Assembly (NCBI RefSeq): GCF_034372165.1
Contig: NZ_CP139698.1
Coordinates: 2,790,001-2,854,000 of the forward strand
From: Christiangramia sp. OXR-203
GTDB taxonomy: Bacteria > Bacteroidota > Bacteroidia > Flavobacteriales > Flavobacteriaceae
Length of the DNA: 64,000 bases
Direction of reading: 5' to 3'
Of this stretch, positions 24,462-46,815 are shown piece by piece. The number at the start of each line of letters is the position of its first letter. Within the stretch, counting starts at the first letter, position 1. Position numbers and translations under genes: made by a program. Under the pieces are notes generated by a model, which made no database searches, had not been told where the DNA came from, and was given only the letters and a program-made list of their open reading frames with translations.

Positions 24462-24530
24462 CATCAATCAAATAACAAGTTCAATGTTAAAGGACACCAG
24501 TTCTAACTCCATCCTGTTTTGGACGATTTT

Positions 24531-24631
24531 GCGTTAGGGATTGCAGCGGCATCCTTTTAACACGAGGCTGAGCACGTCGAAGCATTGTGTTGAAAGATAA
24601 AGCGGAAAGCCCGGCCCGAAGGGAAACGCCC
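24531..24631 (+). repeat. Interspersed dyad repeat, copy A
   Basis: It begins GCGTTAGGGATTGCAGCGGC and ends CCGAAGGGAAACGCCC. The ends are complementary (GCGTT with AACGC), and an inner arm CTTTTAACAC pairs with GTGTTGAAAG. Copies at 24762, 27766 (inverted) and a diverged one at 46535 show it is a dispersed family. All copies are intergenic. The function is unknown; REP-like elements or a structured RNA are options. Confidence 0.85.
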
Positions 24632-24660
24632 ATATTTTTAAAGATCTCTACAATATATAT

Positions 24661-24761
24661 CTGGAAACTCTAGTTGCTGAACTCTCCAAAAAAATAACAT
24701 TAATCAAGCACAGGTTCCATAAAAGCTACAGTTGTAACTCTAAACTGCAATGTAGATGTTT
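24661..24761 (+). pseudogene. Duplicated gldA tail plus flank
   Basis: This segment begins CTGGAAACTCTAGTTGCTGA and reads on to a TAA, closely matching the last codons of gldA (CTGGAAACCCTGTTCGCTGA at 24426) and the bases after its stop. The following repeat copy B stands in the same relation to it as copy A does to gldA (offset about 231-235 bases). So a unit of about 205 bases, gene tail plus repeat, was tandemly duplicated and has since diverged. Confidence 0.75.
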
Positions 24762-24862
24762 GCGTTAGGGATTGCAGCGGCATCCTTTTAACGCAAGGCT
24801 GAGTTTATCGAAGCCTTGTGTTGAAAGATAAAGCGGAAAGCCCGGCCCGAAGGGAAACGCCC
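24762..24862 (+). repeat. Interspersed dyad repeat, copy B
   Basis: Nearly identical to copy A at both ends (GCGTTAGGGATTGCAGCGGC and AAGCGGAAAGCCCGGCCCGA), with a diverged centre. It is part of the tandem duplication next to gldA. Together copies A and B and their flanks fill the 421-base gap between gldA and the convergent DUF2807 gene; no other gene is visible there. Confidence 0.85.
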
Positions 24863-27765: not shown

Positions 27766-27863
27766 GCGTTGCCCTTCGGGCCGGGCTTTTCACTTTATCC
27801 TTTAGCACGATGCTTCAAAAGCTCAGCTTCTTACTAAAAGGATGCCGCTGCAATCCCTAACGC
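27766..27863 (-). repeat. Interspersed dyad repeat, copy C (inverted)
   Basis: On the minus strand it reads GCGTTAGGGATTGCAGCGGC, then CCTTTTAGTAAG, and ends in CCGAAGGGCAACGC, the same family as copies A and B. It lies in the metH-metF gap. The remaining bases to 28012 hold nothing I can identify. Confidence 0.85.
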
Positions 27864-28012
27864 ATGTTTCTCACTTCACAATTTTTTAATATCTGAACCT
27901 GTTTCAGGATATTCAAAGAAGCTGAAATCGATGATTCACGGATTTGATTAGTCCAGCTTCACTGATATCTTTTCTGACTTCTCTAATTTCCTATTGGTCT
28001 AAATACTCAGTA

Positions 28013-30691: not shown

Positions 30692-30692
30692 T

Positions 30693-31706
30693 CTAGATAC
30701 TTTCTGTTTCGAGCTGTGGTAAGACTCTAGGTTTGTAATTAGAAGCGATTTCGGCAATTGCCTTAATATGTTTTGGTGTGGTTCCGCAGCAACCACCGAG
30801 AATATTTACCAGGCCTTTATCAAGATATTCTTCAATTTGAGCTGCCATCTCCTGCGCATCCTGATCGTACTCCCCAAAGGCATTCGGTAAGCCGGCATTA
30901 GGATAGGCCGAAACTCCCGAATTCGCATAGCGGTTTAAAACTTCCAGATGAGGAGTTAATTGTTTTGCACCCAATGCGCAGTTAAAACCGACACTTAACA
31001 ACGGAATATGAGCTACTGAAATAAGAAAAGCTTCTGCCGTCTGTCCGGATAGGGTTCTTCCGGAGGCATCGGTAATCGTTCCGCTTACCATGATGGGAAT
31101 ATCAAGATTCAGTTCTTCTTTTAATTCTTCGATCGCAAAAAGTGCTGCTTTCGCATTTAATGTATCAAAAACAGTTTCTACAAGAAGAACATCTGCTCCA
31201 CCTTCAACAAGCGCTTGCGCCTGCTGTTTGTAAGCTTTCCGAAGTTCATCAAAAGAAATAGCGCGGTATCCGGGATCGTTCACATCCGGACTCATACTAG
31301 CCGTTTTGTTCGTCGGCCCCATCGCTCCAGCTACGAATCTTGGTTTGGATGGGTCCTCCGCAGTGACCTGTTCCGCCACCGCTTTAGCAATTCTGGCCGA
31401 CTCAAAATTAAGCTCGTAAACGAACTCTTCCATTTGATAATCGGCCATCGCAATGGTGGTTCCTGAGAAAGTATTGGTTTCTACAATATCGGCGCCGGCA
31501 TCAAAGTATTTACGATGGATGGTGGCAATAGCTTCAGGTTGGGTAAGGGATAGCAGATCATTATTTCCTTTCAATGAAATGGGCCAGTCGGCAAAACGTT
31601 TTCCGCGGAAATCTTCTTCAGAAAATTTATATTCCTGAAGCATGGTACCCATGGCACCGTCTAGTATTAATATTTTTTGAGAGAGTAACTCTTCTATTTT
31701 CGACAT
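30693..31706 (-). CDS. Methionine synthase, homocysteine-binding part (split MetH)
   Basis: 337 residues, a homocysteine S-methyltransferase barrel. Zinc ligands are Cys243 (GFNCALGAK) and Cys306-Cys307 (GGCCGTTP). [16 protein letters not shown] is the typical MetH N-terminus. It is the N-terminal module of cobalamin-dependent methionine synthase encoded as its own protein and must work with the next gene. It is first in the operon; a SAM-I riboswitch lies 54 bases upstream. Confidence 0.95.
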
Positions 31707-31859: not shown

Positions 31860-31888
31860 GATTGTTAGTAAACAATGAACTTACGAGA

Positions 31889-33999: not shown

Positions 34000-34007
<8 letters not shown>

Positions 34008-34593
34008 TTTTCTCCTTTTCATATATTAAAGACTCAGTAATGCTATTCATTTGTTCCACTTTGGCTTCAAAATCACCTTTGATGGATTTTCGATATTCAT
34101 TCAAATTCTCCACCATTTCGCTAACATTTTCGGGAATCACTTCTTCAAAAAACTGTCGCAAACGCTTTGCGGTCGTTGGTGATTTTCCATTAGTGGAAAT
34201 GGCGATTTTCACATGCCCTTTGTTAACGATCCCGCCCATATAGAAATCACATAATTCTGGTGTATCTGCGATATTCGCCAGTAAAAATCTCTTTTTTGCA
34301 TCTTTATACACCCTTTTATTAAGCTTTGCATCGTTTGTTGCAGCGATCACAAAATGCCGCTTCTTGAGATATTTTCGTTTATACCTTCCCTTAGTCAATT
34401 TAGCTCCGTGTTTTCTGGCAAGCTCTTCTGTTTCTTTCAGGAACCATTTTGCTACCACTTCGACCTGCGCATTAGGACTGGATTTAAATAGAAAATGAAG
34501 CTTTTCGTGACCTACATTTCCACCACCAACTACCAAAATATTAAGTTGATTCACTTTTAAAAAAACCGGATATAATTCGTTTCTCTCTTCCAT
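34000..34593 (-). CDS. Precorrin-2 dehydrogenase / sirohydrochlorin ferrochelatase-like (CysG N-terminal or Met8p type)
   Basis: 197 residues. The NAD-binding motif VVGGGNVGHEKL lies at about 20-31; FVIAATNDAKLNKRV and DFYMGGIVNKGHVKIAISTNGKSPTTAKRLRQ are typical of the siroheme-synthase N-terminal domain. It oxidises precorrin-2 and may insert iron to make siroheme for the sulfite reductase. Its usual partner, uroporphyrin methyltransferase, is the next gene upstream, 125 bases away across a small intergenic repeat. Confidence 0.9.
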
Positions 34594-34630
34594 TTTTTTG
34601 TTTAATAATTCACATTTCGACTGTGCTCAA

Positions 34631-34707
34631 TGTGACAAAACTTTTATTTTGTCAAGCTGAACTCGATACAGCTTCTCTATAGATCCTGAATCAAGTTCAG
34701 GATGACG
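34631..34707. repeat. Intergenic palindromic repeat
   Basis: ATCCTGAATCAAGTTCAGGAT at 34683-34703 is a stem-loop (8 pairs), preceded by GTCAAGCTGAACTCGATACA and a CAAAA/TTTTG dyad. This resembles palindromic intergenic elements seen many times in flavobacterial genomes; only one copy is in this window, so the repeat claim rests on recall. Confidence 0.45.
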
Positions 34708-34717
34708 GGCTTACTCT

Positions 34718-35509
34718 TTAAGCAGCTCCAATGTTTACATATCCCTGTTGTTTCGGAAGACTTTTCACGTTCTGAAAAACTGTTTGTAAAGCATTCGCTT
34801 CCTTCACGACCTCACCAATCACTATAATCGCAGGCGCTCCCAGATTTTTTTCTGAAACTATCTTTTCAATAGTTTTTATAGTTCCAAAACCTGAATTTTC
34901 ATTAGCAGTAGTACCATTCTGAATAATTCCTACGGGCACATCTTGCTTTCCAAAACCACTGAAGATCTCCACTATCTCCTTCAATTTTCCCATTCCCATC
35001 AGGATTACTACGGTTGCTGTAGATTGTGCTGCCAATTGCACGTCATTAGATAAATTCTTCTGAGAAGTGGTTCCCGTGATCACCCAGAAACTTTCAGAAG
35101 TGCCTCTTTGCGTCAGCGGAATTCCAACATTTGCCGGTACCGCAATGGAAGAGGTTATTCCTGAAACAACCGCAGTTTCCAGTCCATGCTTTCGAGCATA
35201 GATGATCTCCTCAGACCCTCTTCCGAAGATGAATGGATCTCCTCCTTTAAGTCTTACCACATGACCTTTTTCTGCAGCATATTTCACAATTAGTTCATTG
35301 ATCTCATCCTGAGAAAATCGATGTTTATCCTTTCGTTTTCCCACGAAAATATGTCTCGCCTGGGGAGCATATTCCAATAAGTCTCTATTAATAAGTGCAT
35401 CATACAGAATTACGTTAGCCGACTTTAAAGTATTTAAAGCCTTCACTGTGATCAATTCCGGATCACCCGGACCTGCGCCTACTACCGTTAGTTTTGCTGA
35501 ATTAAACAT
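34718..35509 (-). CDS. cobA: Uroporphyrinogen-III C-methyltransferase
   Basis: 263 residues from ATG 35509 (MFNSAKLTVVGAGPGDPEL); the open frame extends 9 codons upstream. SAM-binding motifs: VGAGPGDPELITVKA, VRLKGGDPFIFGRG and GITSSIAVPA. It methylates uroporphyrinogen III twice to give precorrin-2, the precursor of siroheme and B12. It overlaps the sulfite reductase stop by 8 bases, consistent with supply of siroheme to that enzyme. Confidence 0.94.
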   Translation of the reverse strand: MFNSAKLTVVGAGPGDPELITVKALNTLKSANVILYDALINRDLLEYAPQARHIFVGKRKDKHRFSQDEINELIVKYAAEKGHVVRLKGGDPFIFGRGSEEIIYARKHGLETAVVSGITSSIAVPANVGIPLTQRGTSESFWVITGTTSQKNLSNDVQLAAQSTATVVILMGMGKLKEIVEIFSGFGKQDVPVGIIQNGTTANENSGFGTIKTIEKIVSEKNLGAPAIIVIGEVVKEANALQTVFQNVKSLPKQQGYVNIGAA

Positions 35510-37595
35510 TCTGTACCTCCTTCGTCCTATAAGCATCTACTCTATTCAGAAATAACTGCGCATCCTCTAAATACTTTCTGGCAAAGTCTTCGCTGGGTTC
35601 ATGCTGGTTTAACTGGTATGTAAATTCTTTAAAAGTGGTCGCCAGATCGATCTTCCCGGTTTCAACGAATAGTTCATCGAATTGCGCAATGATCCCGGCC
35701 TGGGTATTCGTTTTTACATCTTCAGCCAGCAGCAAGGCTTTCGCTGAATTTACAATCGAAGTGTACGCGTGATAAATACTGTCTGCCCAGTCCTTTCGTT
35801 CCAACGCAGATTTGGCATTATCGATCTTCTCTTCACTTTCAAACAATAATGTTGCAATCAGGTCAATGACCACCCCGGCACATTCCCCTACTCCTACTGC
35901 CTTAATATATGGGGTTTCATGTCCCCAATCCACGAACTCATTCTCGGAAATATTTGAAGTATCTGCCAGATCTTTCAGCAAATCATAGAAATAGGTTTTT
36001 TCTTTACGATCGTAATACTCTATAAATTGTTCCTTCGCTTCTGAATTTGCCTCAAAATCATTCAGTATAGTCCTTAATGCTTCAGGACCACGTTTACTGG
36101 GAACTTTGACAAGTTTATCTGCAAATCTACCTTTACCATTCCCGAGGGTTCCACCACCTAGTAACACCTGAAGGGCCGGTGCGACCGTTTTCCCGACTTT
36201 TATAGACATTCCCTGGAATCCAATTTCAGCCATATTATGCTGTCCACAGGCGTTCATACAACCACTAATTTTTATGGTGATATCCTTTCCATTAGTGAAT
36301 TGCGGATATTCTTCTTTGAGAACATCTTCCAGCACATCGGCAATACCGGTACTGCTGGCAATACCAAGATTACAGGTATCGGTGCCAGGACAAGCCGTAA
36401 TGTCTACAGTCTTATTGTATCCAACTTCTGCATAACCCAGTTTTTTCAGTTCTGTATAGAAGAAAGTCAGTAAATCCTGCCGAACGTGACGAATCAAAAT
36501 ATCCTGTCTTAAGGTTAATCTTAACTCGTTACCTGCGTATTTTTTAATTAGGTCTGCCAGCTGCCTCGCTCCACGAGTATAAAAATCACCAAGTGGCACA
36601 CGTATTCCAATAGCGAATAATCCTTCCTGCTTTTGCTCAAAAACATTCTTTTGCTTCCAGTTTTCAAATTCTTTCTCATCTTCGATTTCTACGGAAGGAA
36701 ACTCAACTTCCTGCAATGCTGGAGCTGCTTCGAATCTTTCAATCTCAAATTCAGGTTGTTCTTGCGAAAGTGCCGTCTTTTGTTCGGCTACCAGTTTCAT
36801 AAACGCTTCTTTTCCTATATCCTTCAGAAGAAATTTCATCCTGGCTTTTAGACGCTTAGCACGTTCCCCATGTCGATCAAAAACCCGGAGTACACCTTCA
36901 ATTAGAGGTATGATTTCTTCCGCAGGTAAAAAGTCATATAACTCATCTGCATGCCGGGGTTGTGATCCCAGACCGCCACCAAGCATTACTTTGAATCCGC
37001 GTTTTCCATCCTTCAGTTTGGCGATAAAACCAAGATCATGTATATAACTAAGCGCAGTATCTTCATCTGAAGAAGAGAAGGACATCTTAAATTTTCTACC
37101 CATTTCCTGGCAGATTGGATTCCGAAGAAAAAATTGAAAGACAGCGTGTGCATAAGGTGAGACATCGAAAGGCTCATTAGGATCTATCCCAGCTGTTGGC
37201 GAAGCTGTGATATTTCTTACTGTATTCCCACAGGCTTCTCTAAGAGTGATATCATCTCTTTCTAGTTGCGCCCATAGCTCGGGAGTCCTGTCCAGGCTCA
37301 CGTAATGAATTTGGATATCCTGCCTGGTTGTGATATGCAGCCGACCTTTGGAATACTCATCTGAAACATTAGCGATCCGGTGTAACTGTTCTGAAGTTAC
37401 CTTTCCAAACGGCAGTTTTATACGAACCATTTGAACTCCTGACTGTCGCTGTCCATAAACTCCGCGTGCCAGGCGTAGGCTACGAAACTTCTCTTCATCA
37501 GCCTTTCCTTCGCGAAAAAGCCTGATCTTTTTTTCTAAATCCAGGATATCTTTCTCGACTACAGGATTTTCAATTTCGGTTCTAAAACTTTGCAT
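35502..37595 (-). CDS. Sulfite reductase (siroheme/4Fe-4S hemoprotein) with C-terminal HEPN domain
   Basis: 697 residues. The duplicated ferredoxin-like/siroheme folds occupy about 35-560. The siroheme-[4Fe-4S] Cys ligands are C402 and C408 (ACPGTDTC) and C446 and C450 (GCMNAC). From about 575 to 690 there is an all-helical HEPN domain (DNAKSALERKDWADSIYHAYTSIVNSAKALLLAE). The reductase makes sulfide with six electrons, probably from ferredoxin since no NADPH flavoprotein partner gene is nearby. The HEPN fusion is unusual for the enzyme in general but seems typical of Bacteroidota. A Cys-codon leader and terminator precede the gene, 20-147 bases upstream. Nitrite reductase activity cannot be excluded. 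Confidence 0.9.
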   Translation of the reverse strand: MQSFRTEIENPVVEKDILDLEKKIRLFREGKADEEKFRSLRLARGVYGQRQSGVQMVRIKLPFGKVTSEQLHRIANVSDEYSKGRLHITTRQDIQIHYVSLDRTPELWAQLERDDITLREACGNTVRNITASPTAGIDPNEPFDVSPYAHAVFQFFLRNPICQEMGRKFKMSFSSSDEDTALSYIHDLGFIAKLKDGKRGFKVMLGGGLGSQPRHADELYDFLPAEEIIPLIEGVLRVFDRHGERAKRLKARMKFLLKDIGKEAFMKLVAEQKTALSQEQPEFEIERFEAAPALQEVEFPSVEIEDEKEFENWKQKNVFEQKQEGLFAIGIRVPLGDFYTRGARQLADLIKKYAGNELRLTLRQDILIRHVRQDLLTFFYTELKKLGYAEVGYNKTVDITACPGTDTCNLGIASSTGIADVLEDVLKEEYPQFTNGKDITIKISGCMNACGQHNMAEIGFQGMSIKVGKTVAPALQVLLGGGTLGNGKGRFADKLVKVPSKRGPEALRTILNDFEANSEAKEQFIEYYDRKEKTYFYDLLKDLADTSNISENEFVDWGHETPYIKAVGVGECAGVVIDLIATLLFESEEKIDNAKSALERKDWADSIYHAYTSIVNSAKALLLAEDVKTNTQAGIIAQFDELFVETGKIDLATTFKEFTYQLNQHEPSEDFARKYLEDAQLFLNRVDAYRTKEVQNV

Positions 37596-37614
37596 GATCT
37601 TGATTATTTAAATG

Positions 37615-37654
37615 AAAAAAGTCCTTTTAAGAATGACACTTAAAAGGACTTTTT
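37615..37654 (-). terminator. Attenuator terminator between cysN and sulfite reductase
   Basis: A perfect 16-base stem (AAAAAGTCCTTTTAAG with CTTAAAAGGACTTTTT), loop of 7, and six T at the minus-strand end, just 20 bases before the sulfite reductase ATG. An alternative pairing exists: the 5' arm (37639-37646) can pair over 8 bases (one G-U) with 37677-37684, which spans the stop codon of the upstream Cys leader. That is an antiterminator. Confidence 0.85.
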
Positions 37655-37679
37655 ATAATTCAGTTTATAAAATGGACTT

Positions 37680-37742
37680 CTAAGTATGAGGCGAATCGCA
37701 CATACACATTTTTGATAAAATGTTGATATTGAAGTGGTTCAT
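37680..37742 (-). CDS. Cys-containing leader peptide upstream of sulfite reductase
   Basis: A 20-codon frame (ATG 37742, TAG 37680) starting 13 bases after cysN ends. Codons 12-15 read M-C-M-C, two Cys codons in a short peptide that otherwise has no catalytic look; a shorter version could start at codon 12 (MCMCDSPHT). It is followed 25 bases later by the terminator described separately. The operon makes sulfide for cysteine, so Cys codons fit an attenuator that reports charged tRNA-Cys. Translation is not proved. Confidence 0.75.
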   Translation of the reverse strand: MNHFNINILSKMCMCDSPHT

Positions 37743-37754
37743 TTTTTGGTGATA

Positions 37755-38999
37755 TTATTTTATAAATCCTACTCCGGCCGTGGTATTAGTTTGAGTATCT
37801 ACCAGAATAAATCGACCATTTGTTCGATTCGTATTATAACTGTCGACATAAATAGGTTTACTTAGTTTGATCTTTACGCTACCAATATCATTTAGACTCA
37901 AAGAAGTTACATTCTCTTCGGCTCCAAAATTCGAATCGATATGACTTTCTACTTTATCTATTTTAGCCAGAACACCGTTGGTATTATGTTGTAAAACATA
38001 TTTTTTGCCCGGAACCAAAGGATGATTATCCATCCAGCAAACCATGGCATCCACAACTTTTGTTTCTTCAGGAACCTCTTTGGTTTTCACCAGCATATCT
38101 CCTCTGGCGACATTTATATCATCTGCCAGGCTAATAGTTACAGAACTTCCTGCTGGAGCTTCATCAAACGTTTCTTCAAAAAAATGAATGTCTTTGATTT
38201 TAGAGGTCGTCAAGGATGGCAATACGGTTACTTCATCTCCTACTCTCAAACTATTACCACTAATTTTTCCAGCATATCCTCGATAATCATGAAATTCTTC
38301 GGTTTTAGGTCTTATCACTGTTTGAACAGCAAACCTGGCCTGACTTTCTTCCGCAAAATCTTCAGCTTTGAGATCTTCGAGATGTTCCAGTATGGTTTGC
38401 CCTTGATACCAAGACATTGCAGTAGATTTTTCAGCAATATTCTCTCCCCATAAAGCGCTCACCGGAACAAAGGTGAGTTTCTGATCCTGGAAATCACTTT
38501 TACTTCTCAATTCATCAAATTCCGTAATGATGTTATTGAATACATCTTCAGAGTAATTGACAAGATCCATTTTGTTAATAGCGACTATAACTTCTTTGAC
38601 CCTCAACAAATTATTTATAAAAAAGTGCCGGTACGTTTGTTCGATAACTCCCTTTCTGGCATCTATAAGTATAATTGAAGCTTGCGAAGTTGATGCACCG
38701 GTCACCATATTCCGTGTATATTCAATATGCCCCGGAGTATCGGCGATGATATAACTTTTCTTTGGTGTTGAAAAGTAGATATGAGCTACATCTATTGTAA
38801 TCCCCTGCTCTCTTTCTGCTACCAGACCGTCTGTAGCTAGTGAGAAATCCAAATAGTCCAGACCATTTTTCTTACTTACCCTATCAATGGCTTCCAATTT
38901 ATCTGAAGTTAAAGATTTGGTATCGTAAAGCAGTCTGCCAATGAGTGTACTTTTACCATCATCAACGCTTCCTGCTGTTGCTATTTTTAATACTTCCAT
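37755..38999 (-). CDS. cysN: Sulfate adenylyltransferase subunit 1 (GTPase, CysN)
   Basis: 414 residues from ATG 38999 (MEVLKIATAGSVDDGKST), the conserved start; the frame extends 27 codons upstream into the cysD end. Elongation-factor-like GTPase: Walker A GSVDDGKS (10-17), DTPGH, NKMD. The C-terminal beta-barrel domains follow. No APS kinase (CysC) domain is fused at the end. With CysD it makes APS from sulfate and ATP. The start is 13 bases after the cysD stop. Confidence 0.95.
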   Translation of the reverse strand: MEVLKIATAGSVDDGKSTLIGRLLYDTKSLTSDKLEAIDRVSKKNGLDYLDFSLATDGLVAEREQGITIDVAHIYFSTPKKSYIIADTPGHIEYTRNMVTGASTSQASIILIDARKGVIEQTYRHFFINNLLRVKEVIVAINKMDLVNYSEDVFNNIITEFDELRSKSDFQDQKLTFVPVSALWGENIAEKSTAMSWYQGQTILEHLEDLKAEDFAEESQARFAVQTVIRPKTEEFHDYRGYAGKISGNSLRVGDEVTVLPSLTTSKIKDIHFFEETFDEAPAGSSVTISLADDINVARGDMLVKTKEVPEETKVVDAMVCWMDNHPLVPGKKYVLQHNTNGVLAKIDKVESHIDSNFGAEENVTSLSLNDIGSVKIKLSKPIYVDSYNTNRTNGRFILVDTQTNTTAGVGFIK

Positions 39000-39012
39000 T
39001 CTCTTCTTTATT

Positions 39013-39912
39013 TTAAAAATAACCTTGTTGCTTTCTTGTTTCCATGGCGGCCTCAGATCTTTTATCATCGATTCTTGCACCTCTTTCTGAAATAGCTGAC
39101 TCCCTTATTTCCTTGATAATCTTTTCTACGGTATCTGCTCCAGATTCCACTGCAGCCGTACAGGTTATATCTCCCACAGTTCTAAATCGAACGGTTTTCA
39201 TTTCTGTAATCTCATGATCGTCTTTGTAAACGTGTTCTGAAGCTGTCCAAATCAACCCGTCTCTTTCAAAAATCTCCCTCTCATGAGCGAAATAAATGGA
39301 AGGAATTTCAATCTTTTCAGCATCTATATAACTCCATACATCCAGCTCTGTCCAGTTAGAAATTGGAAATACTCTAACATTCTGGCCCATATCAATACGA
39401 CCATTTAGCATATCAAAAACCTCCGGTCGTTGGTTCTTTTCATCCCATTCTCCAAAGTCATTTCTTACTGAAAAAATTCTCTCTTTAGCACGAGCTTTTT
39501 CTTCATCCCTTCTTGCTCCACCTATACATGCATCGAACTTATATTCTTCAATGGCACTCAAAAGAGTATTGGTTTGCAATGAATTCCTGCTGGAATACCT
39601 GCCTTTTTCTTCAATAGAAACTCCGCTGTCAATATCAACCTGAACTTTTCTTACAATAAGTTTCAGTCCAAGTTCTTCAACTAATCGATCTCTGAACTCG
39701 ATAGTTTCAGGAAAGTTATGACCGGTATCTATGTGCATTAATGGAAAAGGAATCCTGGCAGGATAGAAGGCCTTTTGCGCTAGGCGTACCAAAGTGATAG
39801 AATCCTTACCGCCCGAAAATAATAGTACGGGATTTTCGAACTGAGCCACAACTTCCCGCAAGATGTAAATAGCTTCGCTTTCTAACGTATTTTGATTTAA
39901 AATCGAACTCAT
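39013..39912 (-). CDS. cysD: Sulfate adenylyltransferase subunit 2 (CysD)
   Basis: 300 residues from ATG 39912 (MSSILNQNTLESEAIYI); the frame extends 9 codons into the upstream gene's end. The PP-loop motif is LLFSGGKDSITLVRLA; LLHIDTGHNFPE-like PLMHIDTGHNFPETIEFRD, GGARRDEEKARAKERIFS and the C-terminal RTVGDITCTAAVES are diagnostic. It carries the adenylation active site. The operon order is cysH-cysD-cysN with about 10-base gaps. Confidence 0.95.
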   Translation of the reverse strand: MSSILNQNTLESEAIYILREVVAQFENPVLLFSGGKDSITLVRLAQKAFYPARIPFPLMHIDTGHNFPETIEFRDRLVEELGLKLIVRKVQVDIDSGVSIEEKGRYSSRNSLQTNTLLSAIEEYKFDACIGGARRDEEKARAKERIFSVRNDFGEWDEKNQRPEVFDMLNGRIDMGQNVRVFPISNWTELDVWSYIDAEKIEIPSIYFAHEREIFERDGLIWTASEHVYKDDHEITEMKTVRFRTVGDITCTAAVESGADTVEKIIKEIRESAISERGARIDDKRSEAAMETRKQQGYF

Positions 39913-39922
39913 TTTTAAACTT

Positions 39923-40552
39923 TTAGGTGTGTAAACCACACTCTCTGTTATCTAATACTTTTGTAGGGTCGAAATACTTGAATTCATTCGGTAGCTTATG
40001 CTCTCTTAAATACCCATCTAATTTTTCGTCTGACCAGTGGTAAAAGGGACTAACCTTCAGAAGACCGTCCTTACTATAACTTAGAATATCGATGCTATCT
40101 CTAAAATTTGTCTGTCCTTTTCTGAGATTCGTAAACCACACATCAGGATTTTGTTCAGTCATTGCTCTTTGAAAAGGTTCCAGTTTTACCTGCCTGGTAA
40201 ATTCCTCATGATCTGGAGAATCTACACCAGGAATACCGCTAAAAAATGCGTCTCTATAAGCAGCCGTTTCTTTTGGTGTGTAGAGTTTTACATTAAGATC
40301 TAAATGATCTATAAGAAATTGAGCATGTTTATAGGTAGGCAGGGTATTGTAACCTGTGTCGCACCAAATTATCTTCATAGTACTTTCTACCTGAGTACAG
40401 GCATGTAAGATTGCTGCTTCATAAGGTCTGAAATTGGTAGTAACTACTGGATTATTACTAGATGCCAAGACCCTTTGAATTATTTCTGAAGGTGCTACAC
40501 CCCGTAACTGACTGTTAAGTTTTTCTATTTCTGAATCGCTAAACTTTCTCAT
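39923..40552 (-). CDS. cysH: Phosphoadenylyl-sulfate (PAPS) reductase-like protein CysH
   Basis: 209 residues. The PP-loop fold is seen with TTNFRPYEAAILHACTQ and WCDTGYNTLPTY, and the catalytic C-terminal motif ECGLH has Cys205. The two Cys pairs that bind [4Fe-4S] in APS reductases are not present, so by family rules it should use PAPS, not APS. That would need an APS kinase, which is not in this window and not fused to CysN. It reduces the activated sulfate to sulfite using thioredoxin. It is second in the operon after DUF2061. Confidence 0.85.
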   Translation of the reverse strand: MRKFSDSEIEKLNSQLRGVAPSEIIQRVLASSNNPVVTTNFRPYEAAILHACTQVESTMKIIWCDTGYNTLPTYKHAQFLIDHLDLNVKLYTPKETAAYRDAFFSGIPGVDSPDHEEFTRQVKLEPFQRAMTEQNPDVWFTNLRKGQTNFRDSIDILSYSKDGLLKVSPFYHWSDEKLDGYLREHKLPNEFKYFDPTKVLDNRECGLHT

Positions 40553-40639
40553 CTGTCTTTATGATTTAATTCTGGTCAATTGCGAATAATCAGTTACTAT
40601 TTCGCATTAGTATAATTTCCGGTTCGCTACTATTTAAAG

Positions 40640-40897
40640 CTAATCTTTGCCATAGGGGATTAAATTCCAAAGCCGTTCGTGACCAAAGTACAGGATCATT
40701 TTTGTCACCAGTTCTACAGATCCAATTGCGATAGCGGTTTCTATTTTTCCAGTAAGAAACCATGCGATCATGACCGTATCCAGGGTTCCAACTATTCTCC
40801 AACTAATAGTTTTTAGAATACTTCGAAGCGGTCGTTCTGTAGTCCTATCTTTTTTATAGGTACTTTTTTCTTTAGTTTGATTCAGTAACATCAACAT
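40640..40897 (-). CDS. DUF2061 small membrane protein
   Basis: 85 residues; the start could also be the ATG two codons later. RSILKTISWRIVGTLDTVMIAWFLTGKIETAIAIGSVELVTKMILYFGHERLW is the DUF2061 core, with two short hydrophobic segments. The family is often next to sulfate-assimilation genes; a role in sulfate or sulfur handling is inferred from that only. It is first in the cys operon, behind a good promoter. Confidence 0.85.
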   Translation of the reverse strand: MLMLLNQTKEKSTYKKDRTTERPLRSILKTISWRIVGTLDTVMIAWFLTGKIETAIAIGSVELVTKMILYFGHERLWNLIPYGKD

Positions 40898-40945
40898 ACT
40901 TTCTTCCTTAAAAACTATAATCCTATCGGTTTACTGGGTTTTAAG

Positions 40946-40976
40946 CAAAACTAGACTTCGTTTATTTAAACACCAA
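40946..40976 (-). promoter_or_regulatory. Promoter of the cys operon, with candidate operator just downstream
   Basis: TTG at 40974-40976 and TAGTTTTG at 40946-40953 (20-base spacing) match the Bacteroidota promoter. Just downstream, at about 40915-40935, lies ACCGATAGGATTATAG, a candidate target of the adjacent Rrf2 regulator. The operator idea is inference only. Confidence 0.55.
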
Positions 40977-41012
40977 TTTATTTCTCTGTAAAATTTTATT
41001 TTAACACCCTTG

Positions 41013-41429
41013 TCATTGCTTTAAGGCAATGTCTGCAAGCGTATTCTCTCCAAGTACATTCAGCGATGCATCTCTAACCTGTATCATTAATTTATGAACA
41101 GAACAGGCGTCCTCATCTGGACAGTCATCGCATTTTTCGTAGTAATTAAGGCTCACACATGGAACCATGGCTATGGGTCCTTCCAGTACCCTGATCACTG
41201 CGGTCATCTTAATTTCTGAAGGTTTTTTTATTAAATAATAACCTCCACCTTTTCCCTTCTTAGATCCTAGAAAGCCAGATTTCCTGAGTTCCAGCATGAT
41301 ACTCTCCAGGAACTTCTGAGAAATATTCTCACTTTCTGAAATTTCAGAAGCCTGAACAGGGAATTTTTCATCTTTTCGAGCTATGTATGTTAGCGCTTTG
41401 ATGCCATACTTGGTCTTTTTGGAAAGCAT
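41013..41429 (-). CDS. Rrf2-family transcriptional regulator (IscR/CymR-like)
   Basis: 138 residues from ATG 41429 (MLSKKTKYGIKALTYIA), the usual family start; the frame extends 8 codons further. Winged-helix N-terminus with GFLGSKKGKGGGYYLIKKP. Cys-rich loop PCVSLNYYEKCDDCPDEDACSVHK has four Cys, which could hold an Fe-S cluster. It sits between the met operon (33 bases after metZ) and the cys operon, so it is a good candidate sensor for cysteine/OAS or Fe-S status. This is inference. Confidence 0.85.
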   Translation of the reverse strand: MLSKKTKYGIKALTYIARKDEKFPVQASEISESENISQKFLESIMLELRKSGFLGSKKGKGGGYYLIKKPSEIKMTAVIRVLEGPIAMVPCVSLNYYEKCDDCPDEDACSVHKLMIQVRDASLNVLGENTLADIALKQ

Positions 41430-41462
41430 GAAACGAAAATAAAAAATTTCCAACTTCTATTG

Positions 41463-42626
41463 CTATTCCTGCAAGGCCTTTTTAAGATCATTAATAATAT
41501 CTTCCACATGTTCCAGACCCACCGAAATTCTGACCAGGCTTTCTGAAATTCCTACCGCTTCCAACTCTACTTCACTTAATTTACTATGTGTTGTAGAAGC
41601 AGGATGAGTCACGATCGTCCTGGTATCTCCTAAATTTGCAGATCTTGAACACATTTGCAGTCCGTCGATAAACCTTCTACCTGCTTCCAGTCCGCCTTTG
41701 ATTTGGAATGCCACTACATTACCTCCCAGTTTCATTTGTTTTCTTGCCACTTCATATTGTGGATGAGATTTTAAGAACGGATATTTAACAGTTTCCGCCT
41801 GAGGTAAAGACTCAAGAAACTCTGCAACTTTAAGCGCATTTTCACAATGCTTCTCTAGTCTAATAGAAAGTGTTTCCAAGCTTTTCGATAAAACCCAGGC
41901 ATTAAATGGCGATAGTGCCGGACCCGTATTTCTACTAAAAAGATATATTTCCCGAATTAGATCTTCTCTACCAACAGTAACTCCGCCAAGGACTCTACCC
42001 TGTCCATCCATCAATTTTGTAGCCGAATGTATTACGAGGTCTGACCCAAATTTTATAGGATTCTGCAAATACGGAGTCGCAAAGCAATTATCGATGATCA
42101 AAATGAGATCATGTTTTCTGGCAATATTTCCAAGTAATTTCAGATCCAGAATGTCAACACCAGGATTGGTAGGTGATTCAGCAAACAGGATTTTTGTTTC
42201 AGGTTTGATCAAACTTTCAATATCTTCCGGCGCATTCACATCAAAATAATCATGTGAAATGTTCCATTTAGGAAAATATTTAGTTAATAATCCATGAGTT
42301 GAACCAAATACAGAGCGGGATGAAACTACATGATCACCGCTTTCCAGCAAGGCTGCCAAAGTAGAAAACACCGCAGCCATACCTGTCGCAAAAGCAAATC
42401 CATCTTCAGCTCCTTCCATCTGCACTACCTTGTCAATAAATTCTGAAGTATTAGGATTTGAATAGCGACTGTAAATATTTCGCTCCTTCTCTTCAGCAAA
42501 GCTTGCACGCATATCTTCTGAATCTTCAAAGATATAGCTGGATGTCAGGTACATAGGTGTGGAGTGCTCCTGAAATTGTGTTCGTTTCAATTGCGTTCGT
42601 ACCGCGATGGTTTCAAATTCTGCCAT
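41463..42626 (-). CDS. O-succinyl/O-acetylhomoserine sulfhydrylase-like PLP enzyme (MetZ type)
   Basis: 387 residues, Cys/Met-metabolism PLP family. The PLP Lys is in VIHSATKLMDGQGRVLGG; YSRYSNPNTSEF and CSRSANLGDTRTIVTHPASTTH are typical. It makes homocysteine or a related thioether by gamma-replacement. It is the fourth gene of the metY-metX-hom operon, 4 bases after hom. A second enzyme of the family (metY) is first in the same operon, so one may use sulfide and the other another thiol or substrate. Cystathionine gamma-synthase activity cannot be excluded. Confidence 0.85.
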   Translation of the reverse strand: MAEFETIAVRTQLKRTQFQEHSTPMYLTSSYIFEDSEDMRASFAEEKERNIYSRYSNPNTSEFIDKVVQMEGAEDGFAFATGMAAVFSTLAALLESGDHVVSSRSVFGSTHGLLTKYFPKWNISHDYFDVNAPEDIESLIKPETKILFAESPTNPGVDILDLKLLGNIARKHDLILIIDNCFATPYLQNPIKFGSDLVIHSATKLMDGQGRVLGGVTVGREDLIREIYLFSRNTGPALSPFNAWVLSKSLETLSIRLEKHCENALKVAEFLESLPQAETVKYPFLKSHPQYEVARKQMKLGGNVVAFQIKGGLEAGRRFIDGLQMCSRSANLGDTRTIVTHPASTTHSKLSEVELEAVGISESLVRISVGLEHVEDIINDLKKALQE

Positions 42627-42630
42627 TACT

Positions 42631-43704
42631 TTAGTTTAATTGCTTGTTTATCTTCAGAATATCGCTAAAAACACCTCGTGCGGTAACATCAATTCCTGCG
42701 CCTGCTCCCTGTATAACCAGTGGAAACTCTTTATAGGATTCAGAATAGATCTCAAAAATATTATCGGTTCCATCAATCTGGCCAAGCGGAGTTGCAGCAT
42801 TCGCTGAGATCAACCTGGTTTGCAAACTTCCATTTTCTACATTGAGTTCCCCCACATAACGCAATACTTCTCCGCTCTTATTCTCCTCTTTATGCTTCTG
42901 AAAAATATCGTCTAAAATTGAAACTTGCTTCTGAAAATGCTGTAAACTGGTTCCACCATCTATGGATATAGGAAGTAAAGATTGAACACTTACCTCTTCC
43001 AGCTCTTTCTTCAGCTGAAGTTCTCGTGCAAGAATTAGTAATTTTCTGGCTACATCCTTCCCGCTAAGATCCATCCGCGCATCTGGCTCGGTATAACCTA
43101 ATTCACCAGCCTTGCGAAGCACCTCTGAAAATTGAACATTCTGCTTTGAATAGGTATTAAAGATATAGCTGAGTGAACCCGAGAAAACTCCCCGAATTCT
43201 GGTTACCTGCTCTCCAGAATCATACAGGCTCTTGATGGTTTCCAACACTGGCAAGCCAGCTCCCACATTGGTTTCGTACTGGAATATTTTATGATTTCGT
43301 TTTAACGCTGTTCTTAACTGCTCGTAAAAATCCAGACTTAGTGTATTGGCAACTTTATTTGCGGCTACAATATGACTCTCATGTTCGATCAAATCAATAT
43401 AATTCTCCGGTAAACTATCACTTGCCGTAGTGTCTATGGAAATTAGATTAGTAAATGCATTATTTTCTAAATATTCCAGAATATCGTGGAATTGGTAAGA
43501 GCGCTTTTCCTTGCTAAACCTTTCTTTCCAGTGCTCATTAAGACCTAGTTTATCAGTGATCAAATTACTGGAATTGGCAACCAGGATAATTCTGATCTCA
43601 AGGTCTGAATTTCTTAGAAGTTGATCTTTCGCAGCGATGATCTGCTGAATTAATTTACTTCCAACCTTACCCGGCCCAAACAGAGCGAGATTTATTATTT
43701 TCAT
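42631..43704 (-). CDS. Homoserine dehydrogenase
   Basis: 357 residues, monofunctional, similar to the C-terminal half of ThrA. NAD(P)-binding LALFGPGKVGSKLI (7-20), DTTASDSLPENYIDL, ETNVGAGLPVLETIKSLYDSG, GVFSGSLSYIFN and TEPDARMDLSGKDVARKLLIL. It makes homoserine, the substrate of the MetX gene that overlaps it by 38 bases. The overlap is long but the conserved N-terminus needs this start. No aspartokinase is fused. Confidence 0.92.
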   Translation of the reverse strand: MKIINLALFGPGKVGSKLIQQIIAAKDQLLRNSDLEIRIILVANSSNLITDKLGLNEHWKERFSKEKRSYQFHDILEYLENNAFTNLISIDTTASDSLPENYIDLIEHESHIVAANKVANTLSLDFYEQLRTALKRNHKIFQYETNVGAGLPVLETIKSLYDSGEQVTRIRGVFSGSLSYIFNTYSKQNVQFSEVLRKAGELGYTEPDARMDLSGKDVARKLLILARELQLKKELEEVSVQSLLPISIDGGTSLQHFQKQVSILDDIFQKHKEENKSGEVLRYVGELNVENGSLQTRLISANAATPLGQIDGTDNIFEIYSESYKEFPLVIQGAGAGIDVTARGVFSDILKINKQLN

Positions 43705-44677
43705 TTGTGTAGTTTTTTTGTTGAAATATGGGTTCTAAAAATTTGGCTACCTGGTCGGTTTCGATCAAAAATGCATCATGTCCATGAATAGATTTGATCT
43801 CGTGAATACTAACATTATTCTTGAATAGTGACAGCTCTACATAAGTGTTCCAATTTTCTTCTGCCAGGAAAAAAAGATCCGTATCTATGGTGATTATATG
43901 TATATGACCCTTAACCCTTGCGGCAACTTCAATGGTGTTTTGTGAGTCGTTTGAAATATTGATCGTAGTCAATAAATGGTTCATCAACTTATAGGAACTT
44001 AAACTAAAGCGTGATCTAAGTTTACTCCCGTGATGCTCCAGCCAGTTTTCGACCTTAAAACTATTCGTAGTTTCATCTTTTTCATTTCTGAATTTGTAGC
44101 TAAGCGATTGTGGTGTACGATAAAAGGTCATTGCATGCATACGCGCATCCTCCAATGGATTCTCACTGTTATTCAGAATCCTGTCCTGAATTTTACAATT
44201 TGCCAGAAGCCAGTCTGTCGATTTCAGATCTGTAGCGATTGGTATCACGTGTAAAGCAAGGTCTGGTTTTAAAGCTGCCAGCTGCCAGGCCAGTGCCCCG
44301 CCAATAGAAGCTCCAATGATGGCAAATAGCTCGGTAATATTTAAGTGTTCCAGAACTTTAACCTGGATTCTTGCAATATCATTCAAGGTAAACTCCTTAT
44401 AATTATGAAAGTTATCTTCATCATTCTTCAGAATTCCATTTCCAGGAATATTGATGCAAATAATGGAAAATTGATCTGTATCTATGCTAGCTCCGGGCCC
44501 CACAATATCACTCCACCAGCCTCCTGAACCGCAAACCTGGGCATTTCCGGTAAGCGCATGATTCACCATAATTACCGGAGCGGTGCCCAGTTTTCTGCCA
44601 AATAACTGGAAACAAACATCAATGTTCTGAACGCTGCCGGCACTATTCCTAAAACCTGTTATTCTTATTTGTTGCAT
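43667..44677 (-). CDS. metX: Homoserine O-acetyltransferase
   Basis: 336 residues from ATG 44677 (MQQIRITGF); the open frame begins 12 codons earlier at 44713 (MQCMRFRF), which seems too long. Alpha/beta-hydrolase: nucleophile elbow GASIGGALAWQL (Ser124), Asp in TIDTDLFF, His in SIHGHDAFLIE near the C-terminus. NHALTGNAQVCG is the family oxyanion region. It acetylates homoserine for the adjacent sulfhydrylase. It lies 67 bases after metY, with a hairpin in the gap. Confidence 0.92.
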   Translation of the reverse strand: MQQIRITGFRNSAGSVQNIDVCFQLFGRKLGTAPVIMVNHALTGNAQVCGSGGWWSDIVGPGASIDTDQFSIICINIPGNGILKNDEDNFHNYKEFTLNDIARIQVKVLEHLNITELFAIIGASIGGALAWQLAALKPDLALHVIPIATDLKSTDWLLANCKIQDRILNNSENPLEDARMHAMTFYRTPQSLSYKFRNEKDETTNSFKVENWLEHHGSKLRSRFSLSSYKLMNHLLTTINISNDSQNTIEVAARVKGHIHIITIDTDLFFLAEENWNTYVELSLFKNNVSIHEIKSIHGHDAFLIETDQVAKFLEPIFQQKNYTNENNKSRSVWAG

Positions 44678-44692
44678 AAAATTGAGGTTAAA

Positions 44693-44724
44693 CCGGAACC
44701 GCATACATTGCATACAGGCTCCGG
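44693..44724 (-). other. GC-rich stem-loop in the metY-metX gap
   Basis: On the minus strand CCGGAGCC pairs with GGTTCCGG over 8 bases (one G-U), enclosing a 16-base loop containing a direct repeat GTATGC. No clear T run follows, so it is a weak terminator at best; RNA processing or stabilisation is another option. Confidence 0.4.
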
Positions 44725-44743: not shown

Positions 44744-46036
44744 TTAAACAAGTGATTGTTGAGTAACCTGAGCGAAAGCCTGCTTCAAATCTGCTTTAAG
44801 GTCCTCTGTATCTTCCAGCCCTACTGAAAGTCTTATTAGATCCGGCTTTACCCCGGCAGATAATTGTTCTTCGTCTTTCAACTGCTGGTGAGTGGTACTG
44901 GCAGGATGAATAATAAGGGATTTAGTATCTCCAATATTGGCAAGCAGTGAAAATACCTTTGATGCATCTACTACTTTTTTAGCGACTTCATAACCTCCTT
45001 TAATTCCGAAAGTCACGAGTCCGCTTTGCCCTTTTGGTAAATACTGCTGAGCGATATCGTAGTATTCGCTAGACTCCAAACCGGGATAATTTACCCATTC
45101 CACTTCCTCTTGCTGCTCCAGCCAGGTGGCTAGTTCCAGGGCATTTTTGCTATGTTCGTTTATTCTAACTTTCAGCGTTTCCAGTCCCTGGATAATCTGG
45201 AACGCATTAAACGGACTAAGTGCCGCACCATGATCACGCAATCCTTCAATCCTGACTTTAGCAATGAATGCAGCTTCCTGCAATGCTTCGTGATAAACTA
45301 ATCCATGATAACCTGGAGATGGCTCCGTAAATTCAGGAAATTTTCCACTGGACCAGTCGAACTTACCAGCGTCAATAATCACTCCTCCAAGACTGGTTCC
45401 GTTCCCGCCAATATACTTGGTTAGAGAGTGTATTACGATATCTGCTCCGTAATCTATTGGATTCAAAAGGTAAGGTGTGGCTACGGTATTATCCACGATA
45501 AACGGCACTTTGAATTCCTTTGCCTCTTTGGAAATTGCCTCCAGATCCAGAACATCCAGTTTTGGATTCCCCAGCGATTCAACGAAAAATACCCGGGTAT
45601 TTTCCTGTGTTGCTTTCTTGAAATTGGCAGCATCACGTGGATCCACAAACGTGGTTGTTATGCCAAACCTTGGCAGTGTATTTTGTAAAAGGTTGAAAGT
45701 CCCACCATACAAGCTGCTGCTAGCTACAATATGATCGCCAGCCTTTAGTAAAGTTAGTAATGCAGTATTGATCGCAGCAGTTCCAGATGCCGTAACCACA
45801 GCTCCAATTCCACCTTCTAGCGCTGCCAGTCTTTGTTCCAGCACATCATTGGTGGGATTGTTTAAACGGGTATAAATAAAACCTGGCTTTGCAAGAGAAA
45901 ATAGATCTGCCGCATGCTGACTATCGTTGAAAACATAGGAACTGGTCTGGTAAATTGGTACCGCTCTGGTTCCTCCATTTTGAGTTGTATCGTGTCCTGA
46001 ATGTAATGCCTGTGTTGAAAATTTTTGAGTACTCAT
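44744..46036 (-). CDS. metY: O-acetylhomoserine aminocarboxypropyltransferase / cysteine synthase (MetY)
   Basis: 430 residues, longer than the MetZ-type paralog, as usual for MetY. The PLP Lys is in [42 protein letters not shown] and the C-terminal [19 protein letters not shown] are diagnostic. It makes homocysteine from O-acetylhomoserine and sulfide; some members also act on O-acetylserine. It is first of the operon metY-metX-hom-metZ-rrf2 and is preceded by two Met/Cys-rich leaders, each with a terminator. Confidence 0.93.
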
Positions 46037-46071: not shown

Positions 46072-46111
46072 AAAAAAGTCCCCCTGATATGCTATTACCA
46101 GGGGGACTTTT
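46072..46111 (-). terminator. Attenuator terminator 2, directly before metY
   Basis: AAAAGTCCCCCTG and CAGGGGGACTTTT (13 pairs) flank a 12-base loop, with six T on the minus strand; it ends 36 bases before the metY start. The loop and 5'-arm segment 46091-46099 is perfectly complementary (9 bases) to 46150-46158, inside the Met-rich leader upstream, which is a possible antiterminator. Confidence 0.9.
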
Positions 46112-46132
46112 GAATTGATTCCTTTTTAAAAT

Positions 46133-46228
46133 CTATATTCTCGAGTTCAGGTAATAGCTATACATGCTGCACATACACATCATCATGCGCATGTTCATCA
46201 TATTTTTAACTGTTACCTGTAATATCAT
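46133..46228 (-). CDS. Met/Cys-rich leader peptide 2 (proximal to metY)
   Basis: A 31-codon frame from ATG 46228 to TAG 46133. Codons 10-20 read MMNMRMMMCMC, with seven Met and two Cys codons among eleven, then SMYSYY. A shorter frame could start at codon 10. It is followed 21 bases later by a strong terminator, and the downstream gene makes the methionine precursor homocysteine. Ribosome stalling on Met or Cys codons would leave 46150-46158 free to pair with the terminator region. The reading frame on the opposite strand at this place (His-rich) is a shadow of the repeated ATG. Confidence 0.85.
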   Translation of the reverse strand: MILQVTVKNMMNMRMMMCMCSMYSYYLNSRI

Positions 46229-46267
46229 AATTGTAAAGTTTTGTGTTCTAATTTCAATTTTGGCAAT

Positions 46268-46300
46268 AAAAAAAGCCGCTGCGGTTGGCAGCGGCTTTTT
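46268..46300 (-). terminator. Attenuator terminator 1, between the two Met leaders
   Basis: AAAAAGCCGCTGC and GCAGCGGCTTTTT pair perfectly over 13 bases (loop 5) with seven T on the minus strand. The 5' arm 46288-46293 is complementary over 6 GC-rich bases to 46337-46342 in the end of leader 1, giving an alternative antiterminator. Two terminators in tandem before metY mean that both must be passed. Confidence 0.88.
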
Positions 46301-46321
46301 GCAATATATATTCTTTCAGAA

Positions 46322-46393
46322 TTATGCAACAAGATGCGCTGCGGAAGTTCTCCACATCATACACATCATCATATTGCAAACTGTTCTGTACAT
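46322..46393 (-). CDS. Met/Cys-rich leader peptide 1 (distal to metY)
   Basis: A 23-codon frame, ATG 46393 to TAA 46322. Codons 6-14 read CNMMMCMMW, five Met and two Cys codons in nine, with a Trp. The end of the frame includes CCGCAGCG, which can pair with the arm of the terminator 22 bases downstream. Within the leader, the last Met-Trp codons (GTGGA) can pair with TCCGC, so stalling would change which pairing forms. A promoter with a perfect TAnnTTTG element lies about 18 bases upstream. Translation is not proved. Confidence 0.85.
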   Translation of the reverse strand: MYRTVCNMMMCMMWRTSAAHLVA

Positions 46394-46410
46394 TGTTTTA
46401 AATTGTTTTA

Positions 46411-46442
46411 CAAAGATAACGTCAGAGTTTTTTATTATCCAA
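46411..46442 (-). promoter_or_regulatory. Promoter of the metY leader transcript
   Basis: TATCTTTG at 46411-46418 exactly matches TAnnTTTG, and TTG at 46440-46442 lies 21 bases upstream. The predicted start gives a very short untranslated stretch before the leader-1 ATG at 46393. Confidence 0.6.
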
Positions 46443-46534
46443 GCTTTTGCGTACATATTTTTTTAGCCTTCTAGAATTTATAAAGTGCAACACGCATAAA
46501 TACTGATAGTTACAAAGTATATTTTTTTTTGGTT

Positions 46535-46729: not shown

Positions 46730-46742
46730 TATCAACTTATTG

Positions 46743-46815
46743 AAAGGGATAGATTTGACTGATTGCAACCCTCTACATCACATAGATGTTTTAAAATGCT
46801 AAAGCAGAATGGTAA
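46743..46815 (+). ncRNA. Probable SAM-II riboswitch upstream of metK
   Basis: AGGG with CCCT forms P1; the loop holds GATTTGACTGATTGCAA, close to the SAM-II core (GATTTnACnGnATTGCA), and the 3' strand AAAATGCTAAAGC matches the conserved AAAnGCTAAAnG segment. A small extra hairpin (CATC/GATG) lies between them, as described for the Bacteroidota form. The match is to a consensus I recall, not to a covariance-model score. It lies 65 bases upstream of metK and would lower expression when SAM is plentiful. Confidence 0.75.

Follow-up and report, generated by a model that had tools for sequence, protein, structure and literature searches.

The metY gene of Christiangramia sp. OXR-203 is preceded by two leader–terminator units, which we interpret, with a probability of about 0.87, as two classical leader-peptide transcription attenuators arranged in series, both sensing the charging of methionine and cysteine tRNAs. 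The open reading frames (ORFs), terminators, pairing, geometry, conservation, and promoter position that lead to this interpretation are described below as read from the sequence.

Two leader–terminator units upstream of metY

In the window (the whole stretch of DNA analysed, 64,000 nucleotides), leader 1, terminator 1, leader 2, terminator 2, and metY follow one another 5′ to 3′ on the minus strand, with the following features.

46411–46442, minus strand: flavobacterial sigma-A type promoter, TTGG (46442–46439), 20 nt, TATCTTTG (46418–46411)
46322–46393, minus strand: leader 1 ORF, MYRTVCNMMMCMMWRTSAAHLVA, 23 codons and stop (relatives in alignment A1)
46352–46356, minus strand: leader 1 region 1 (TGTGG), read from the sequence and local folds
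46337–46342, minus strand: leader 1 region 2 (GCAGCG), antiterminator strand within the leader
46288–46293, minus strand: leader 1 region 3 (CGCTGC), 5′ arm of terminator 1
46268–46298, minus strand: terminator 1, AAAGCCGCTGCCAACCGCAGCGGCTTT and T run (−18.9 kcal/mol; covariation)
46133–46228, minus strand: leader 2 ORF, MILQVTVKNMMNMRMMMCMCSMYSYYLNSRI, 31 codons and stop (alignment A2)
46201–46163, minus strand: Met/Cys cluster of leader 2
46150–46158, minus strand: leader 2 region 2 (GCTATTACC), antiterminator strand
46091–46099, minus strand: leader 2 region 3 (GGTAATAGC), loop and stem top of terminator 2
46072–46111, minus strand: terminator 2, AAAAGTCCCCCTG GTAATAGCATAT CAGGGGGACTTTT(TT) (fold and covariation)
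44744–46036, minus strand: metY, O-acetylhomoserine/O-acetylserine sulfhydrylase (TIGR01326, above cut-off)
43667–44713, minus strand: metX-like homoserine acyltransferase (below equivalog cut-off)
42631–43704, minus strand: homoserine dehydrogenase-like protein (below cut-offs)
41463–42626, minus strand: metZ-like sulfhydrylase (PRK08133, 505 of 522 bits)
34000–41453, minus strand: sulfur genes (Rrf2, DUF2061, two of PAPS-reductase fold resembling cysH/cysD, cysN-like GTPase, sulfite reductase, sirohaem), named from their Pfam domains; on the same strand as metY and only candidates for co-transcription

Each leader is a short ORF enriched in codons for the products of the operon, and the presence of both Met and Cys codons fits the methionine and sulfur-assimilation genes behind metY. 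At least seven Met plus Cys within 14 codons were found in two of the 512 ATG ORFs of 15–60 residues on both strands of the window, namely the two leaders only; for this survey leader 1 was counted as the longer frame that opens at 46456, an in-frame ATG situated upstream of the promoter and left out of the leader 1 ORF listed above. An intrinsic terminator, recognized by sequence and covariation, is present between each leader ORF and the operon, and the leader end pairs with the 5′ side of that terminator as a conserved antiterminator, more weakly for leader 2. Over 46072–46456, no Rfam family scored above its gathering score, and the family models gave no match to a SAM-I or SAM-II aptamer.

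In leader 1, region 1 (TGTGG) is pairable with CCGCA at region 2 in the absence of a ribosome, as far as can be read from the sequence. The exact complement between leader 1 and terminator 1 amounts to six bases, a length reached in 180 of 2000 shuffles and alone not significant, so that the support for this unit is comparative. Leader 2 starts ~40 nt downstream of terminator 1. Its 31-codon frame, proposed in the first-pass annotation, was confirmed at 46228–46133 with coordinates and frame correct. The 13-pair terminator said to end 36 bases before metY also checked out in both figures: AAAAGTCCCCCTG (46111–46099) pairs with CAGGGGGACTTTT (46086–46074), the T run ends at 46072, and the ATG of metY is at 46036, 36 positions on. 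By script, terminator 2 was located at −74 to −38 from metY (−24.5 kcal/mol). The nine-base complement claimed between leader 2 and the loop of its terminator (46158–46150 with 46099–46091) is exact, and 14 of 2000 dinucleotide shuffles of leader 2 reach nine bases, but eight of the nine bases belong to the loop, the first G being the closing base of the stem.

Promoter position and a predicted single transcript

A study on Flavobacterium psychrophilum gives TAnnTTTG as the consensus of flavobacterial promoters (PMC9723704). The motif scored here was TTTG-N16–23-TAnnTTTG with a threshold of 11.5 or more, and the loci with both leaders comprise 43 relatives and the window (n = 44). Upstream of leader 1 the motif occurs in 40 of these 44 pair loci (shuffles, 3.9%), the window scoring 12.0 at this place and 9.0 upstream of leader 2. 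A promoter between the two leaders that bypasses the first, which the first-pass annotation had put forward as incompatible with serial control, was absent at threshold from the 90 nt before leader 2 in every pair locus (0/44), but the motif does appear in one of the 38 terminator 1-to-leader 2 intervals scored, another six of the 44 being too short to score; this check is at sequence level only. Both units are predicted to lie on one transcript from the promoter upstream of leader 1.

Among all 57 leader loci, eight have the motif in the 90 nt before leader 2 (shuffles, 1.7%), and all eight are single-leader loci: six Flavobacterium loci with leader 2 only (L041, L044, L046, L049, L050, and L052, where the promoter-like site lies 47–55 nt before leader 2), together with L054 and L078. 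These sites would suit a scheme in which metY is controlled solely by leader 2, with a promoter of its own, and leader 1 belongs to a different short transcript or is a relic, as would two genomes of the genus that holds the Flavobacterium contigs, in which leader 1 is followed by a 948-residue gene, receptor-like by appearance, and then by leader 2 before metY (L196, 457–3733; L197, 537–3862). We regard this scheme as quite unlikely, given the absence of a site at threshold from the 90 nt before leader 2 in all 44 pairs and the finding that leader 1 is no less conserved than leader 2 (mean column identity, 63% versus 47% over 29 and 40 rows, respectively, the loci differing between the two sets).

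Covariation and pairing between leader and terminator

Both terminators are preserved as helices. In terminator 1, 94.1% of the alignment cells are paired and changes on both sides occur at six of ten pairs, with a covariation score of 0.322 against 0.175 in shuffled alignments; in terminator 2, 97.3% of cells are paired and both-side changes occur at six of 11 pairs, with a score of 0.469 against 0.287. For terminator 2, two counts stay within chance, that of double-change pairs (equalled or exceeded in 129 of 500 shuffles) and that of further pair types (in 481 of 500); its paired cells and covariation score rise above the shuffles.

The leader strands also match their own terminators better than those of other loci. 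The pairing energy was −16.75 kcal/mol for own and −13.10 kcal/mol for swapped partners in leader 1, and −13.48 and −11.23 kcal/mol in leader 2, with 0 of 20000 permutations reaching the observed value in either case; the permutations, which ignore relatedness, were run on the rows left after dereplication (29 of 44 for leader 1 and 40 of 56 for leader 2). L054 and L078, whose terminators are of the leader-1 type, were dropped from the leader-2 pairing and geometry sets. Among the arm types chosen for comparison, no other partner outdid the own one for five of six leader-1 types, but this held for only three of 12 leader-2 types.

Gap runs before the stop codon are in multiples of three in 28 of 30 cases in A1 and 155 of 195 in A2, unlike those after the stop codon (23 of 80 and 25 of 217, respectively), which supports translation of the leaders. 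At the same time, the leader-1 RNA containing CCGCAG is read as Ser-Ala-Ala in some rows of A1 and as Pro-Gln-Arg in others; the same RNA thus persists across shifted codon phases, indicating that the RNA is conserved and the peptide is not. Met/Cys-rich peptides can bind metals, and both leader frames are open and show in-frame conservation, as would be expected if the ORFs encoded real small Met/Cys-rich proteins, for example metal-binding ones, followed by ordinary terminators. That explanation is very improbable, in view of C-terminal residues that track the RNA pairing through the phase shifts, terminators that pair better with their own leader ends than with swapped ones, and, as described below, SAM riboswitches standing in for the leaders at most leaderless loci and His and Trp analogues within the same genome.

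Ribosome geometry and folding of the exposed RNA

A ribosome covers 13 nt from the first A-site base to its front edge, and this distance was used to find the last Met or Cys codon at which a stalled ribosome leaves region 2 free. With L082 dropped, the gap from the ribosome edge to region 2 of leader 1 is then 0–2 nt in 41 of 43 rows and 5 nt in the remaining two (L084 and L088); in leader 2 it is wider, 0–7 nt where defined. In the window, a stall with Cys codon 20 of leader 2 in the A site is predicted to expose exactly GCTATTACC. A ribosome at the stop codon overlaps region 2 in 43 of 44 leader-1 rows and 47 of 56 leader-2 rows; for leader 2, the part of region 2 that it masks amounts to 44% in the window, and in nine of the 56 rows region 2 is left entirely uncovered, although a wrongly assigned helix may account for several of these nine. 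The helix finder picked another helix in L082, L064, L068, L071, and L073, and perhaps in L058, L084, and L088; in L064, L068, L071, and L073 the stop codon precedes region 2.

In the window, RNA downstream of a stalled ribosome folds into the antiterminator as long as the 3′ arm has yet to be transcribed (−16.9 and −17.0), and RNA downstream of a ribosome at the stop codon folds into the terminator. The same alternation is found throughout the alignments: RNA from region 2 onward forms the 2:3 helix before the 3′ arm, and RNA past the stop-codon ribosome forms the terminator, in 43 of 43 leader-1 and 49 of 49 leader-2 rows each. In the former case the start at region 2 was chosen by hand and not set by a codon; L082 was skipped for leader 1, and L054, L078, L064, L068, L071, L073, L058, L084, and L088 for leader 2. 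With no ribosome, at least half of region 2 is sequestered by upstream leader RNA in 42 of 43 leader-1 and 37 of 49 leader-2 rows, so that the absence of translation should terminate transcription. The local fold energy of leader 1 is −7.17 against −4.21 in shuffled sequences; the leader-2 mean is unusable, because the overly short contig of L037 distorts it. At equilibrium in the window, the full terminator wins even under a stall (−26.3 and −28.7), and the switch would therefore depend on co-transcriptional timing.

From these features we infer the following mechanism. Transcription would start ~13 nt upstream of leader 1, as judged from the promoter. As long as both Met-tRNA and Cys-tRNA are charged, the translating ribosome would reach the leader stop codon and cover region 2, so that region 3 pairs with region 4 and RNA polymerase halts at the terminator. 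When Met or Cys is scarce, the ribosome would stall within the Met/Cys run and leave region 2 free to pair with region 3 while region 4 has yet to be transcribed, and RNA polymerase would read on. Leader 2 would repeat this test after terminator 1; metY and the genes behind it would thus be read only if both terminators are passed. The scheme assumes coupling of ribosome and polymerase in Bacteroidota. As both units appear to sense the same mix, a tighter off state and a steeper response are the likely gain of doubling; that two units give the steeper response is plausible.

Proposed signal of the two leaders

Methionine is an odd signal for an attenuator, because the start codon itself needs Met-tRNA. 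Across the 44 pairs, the mean Cys share is 0.31 in leader 1 and 0.29 in leader 2, being higher in leader 2 in 14, and the shares of the two leaders are correlated (Spearman, 0.53, relatedness ignored), which favours the same signal being sensed twice. The first-pass annotation had suggested that leader 2, which contains Tyr codons, may respond to a different mix. These codons fall within and next to the antiterminator strand of leader 2, at positions where relatives carry other residues; Tyr as a control codon of leader 2 was rejected, and the suggestion of a different mix is not supported.

A division of labour in its wider form, with leader 1 reading Met and leader 2 reading Cys or another mix including Tyr, would agree with two loci. 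In one genome (G100) the units are split: a Met-only leader 1 precedes metY and a leader-2-like ORF with three Cys precedes a sulfite reductase gene (L151, 5688–5756 and 9855–9926). In L179, a leader pair precedes a cysH-like gene, and both of its leaders are very Cys-rich. We nevertheless consider such a division unlikely, since in the pairs the Cys shares are equal and correlated and the Tyr codons at region 2 are not kept.

Conservation of the tandem among relatives

The scan of genome contigs kept the best 80 of 209 metY relatives, and the locus set consequently leans to near relatives. Both leaders with their terminators, in the same order, were found by script in 43 of these best 80 loci, one leader in 14, and none in 23. 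By record title the pairs belong to Christiangramia/Gramella, Salegentibacter, Salinimicrobium, Gillisia, Mesonia, and Flavobacterium, and they further occur in one Chryseobacterium MAG and in MAGs classified only to family or above. Among the 14 single-leader loci, L037 is cut at the contig end, and L054 and L078 are the two with leader-1-type terminators mentioned above.

A model of leader 2 and its terminator (R2) scored below 1e-6 in 18 of 299 family genomes, the own genome included. Thirty loci were read after this search, and 16 carry the pair (L111–L118, L120–L126, and L129), with the metY start visible behind it in 15; in G273 (L128), which also scored below 1e-6, no leader was found on reading. 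At E ≤ 0.01, R2 matched 176 of the 299 genomes, mostly weakly and in terminator-like sequences. The model R1 scored 6.8e-10 or better in 16 of the 18 genomes chosen from the R2 search and lay directly upstream of R2 in 17 of the 18, with weak scores in two (G224 and G022); the exception is G100. At 1e-5 or better, R1 matched 21 genomes in a set of 196 from the order, made up of the own genome, 17 from a single further genus of the family, and three from other families; in a set of 198 from the class it matched eight, four of them outside the order (L192–L195). Of these four, L193 has a Met-rich ORF and a terminator with no sulfur gene seen nearby, and L192, L194, and L195 showed nothing convincing as leaders on reading; no such leader accompanies the other R1 matches of the own genome (L153, L154, and L190). 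The exact pattern ATGATGATGTGYATG matched 32 of 397 genomes, and a true leader was present in one (L027) of the 15 loci read, which are those of 30 with the pattern on the stored plus strand. The large R1 and R2 genome runs used stricter filters that lose weak matches, and the exact frequencies are limited by model sensitivity; the named loci and genome sets overlap (for example, G266 and L039), and the counts are not independent.

As judged from these matches, the tandem is widespread among the relatives and far from universal in the family. The claim of two complete attenuators in series before metY is supported, the pair being kept in more than half of the best 80 loci; as for the accompanying remark on rarity, tandem attenuators may be rare as a kind, but in the set of close relatives studied here this arrangement is common. 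Drift, in which a duplicated attenuator is retained since losing a copy costs little, would accord with the occurrence of loci with one leader, of pairs in split form, and of additional pairs upstream of metX-like genes. This account has a small chance of being right: across several genera and in the Chryseobacterium MAG, both units retain their order, antiterminator, and terminator, and the sequence of one unit is very unlike that of the other.

SAM riboswitches and rearranged modules

At the 23 leaderless loci of the best 80, a SAM riboswitch often occupies the place of the leaders: SAM-I lies just upstream of metY in nine and SAM-II in six (15/23). SAM-II lies ~1.3 kb upstream of metY in three more; two loci leaderless by script have a leader-1-like ORF on reading (L101 and L109), two have a long receptor-like gene upstream, and one is cut. 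At the 57 leader loci, no SAM match lies upstream of metY on the metY strand (0/57); SAM-II is present on the opposite strand at many of them, and SAM-I beyond metY at some.

The window itself contains, as the SAM matches nearest to the leaders, SAM-II at 46739–46812 (plus strand) before metK and SAM-I at 31861–31758 (minus strand) before a methionine synthase-like gene; together with the leaders, Met sensors of three kinds lie within ~15 kb in a single genome. This metH-like gene (28013–31706, minus strand) comprises two overlapping frames, 30693–31706 (Pfam-searched) and 28013–30796. Three Flavo-1 RNA matches are also present in the window (24526–24851, plus strand; 27775–27865, minus strand).

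Besides the split forms described above, with gene names in all split or copied loci read from translations, leader 1 alone precedes a cysteine-synthase-like pair (L184 and L185) and a metZ-like fragment (L183), and a Met/Cys leader pair with terminators precedes an EamA-like transporter gene on the minus strand of L164. Pairs poorer in Met and Cys precede metX-like genes, with SAM-I further on in two loci (L152 and L197). In L152 (2635–3510), a Met/Cys-poor pair, SAM-I, and the metX-like gene place three RNA elements in a row. On this evidence we lean slightly toward a reading in which, within a lineage of Flavobacteriales, two same-signal Met/Cys attenuators in series take the place that the SAM riboswitch of metY has in relatives and act as an AND gate that multiplies two tRNA-charging tests, the module having also been divided, duplicated, and put to use at other sulfur genes.

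The same genome has further leaders with terminators before hisG (MTNFNVHHHHFLLHAQAR; L160, 1202–1258, plus strand) and trpE (MFITNTHNWWWSNLRNKS; L162, minus strand), and possibly before ilvD (MISIVEKFVVAVLEILF; L161, 1097–1150, plus strand). The His and Trp runs of these leaders suggest that the attenuation mechanism is at home in this genome.

Comparison with known systems

The trp and his attenuators of Escherichia coli consist of a short ORF with a run of the regulated codon, alternative 1:2, 2:3, and 3:4 helices, and a U-run terminator before the operon. The metY units resemble them in the codon run, the predicted alternative helices, and the U-run terminator before a biosynthetic operon, and differ in combining Met with Cys codons, in forming two full serial units, and in the Bacteroidota promoter type. 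Leader-peptide attenuation is thus known, and the serial same-signal Met/Cys pair may be unreported in the open PMC literature searched: no such tandem was found in the titles and abstract openings listed, and the supplement of PMC9723704 may list one. Same-signal serial units kept over several genera offer a natural test of the effect of serial attenuation on basal level and steepness, and the split and copied forms are ready-made comparisons for single units.

The Salmonella mgtCBR virulence operon is reported to have tandem attenuators for ATP and proline with additive effects (PMC3641672); as in the metY pair, a single leader mRNA carries a pair of short ORFs together with alternative structures, but the metY pair apparently reads the same Met/Cys signal twice, precedes an amino-acid operon, and is found across genera. 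In F. psychrophilum, of the same family, clues to leader-peptide attenuation have been noted upstream of amino-acid biosynthesis operons (PMC9723704), a likeness in both family and operon type; the main text of that paper lacks the word methionine, and its passages on attenuation name no tandem, but a metY case may be in its tables. Short ORFs resembling leader peptides are mentioned for Bacteroides in PMC7366714. The Cys-codon leader ORFs before cys operons of Mycobacterium are similarly Cys-rich and short and precede sulfur-assimilation genes; unlike the metY pair, they are single, were found to lack conserved terminator hairpins, and belong to Actinobacteria (PMC1262725). Sensing systems are reported to switch at the same gene (PMC2965389), and by our reading metY is under S-adenosylmethionine control in some relatives and under tRNA-charging control in others. 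SAM-I and SAM-II occupy the same place before the same gene in these relatives and sense S-adenosylmethionine directly, without translation, whereas the metY leaders would need to be translated.
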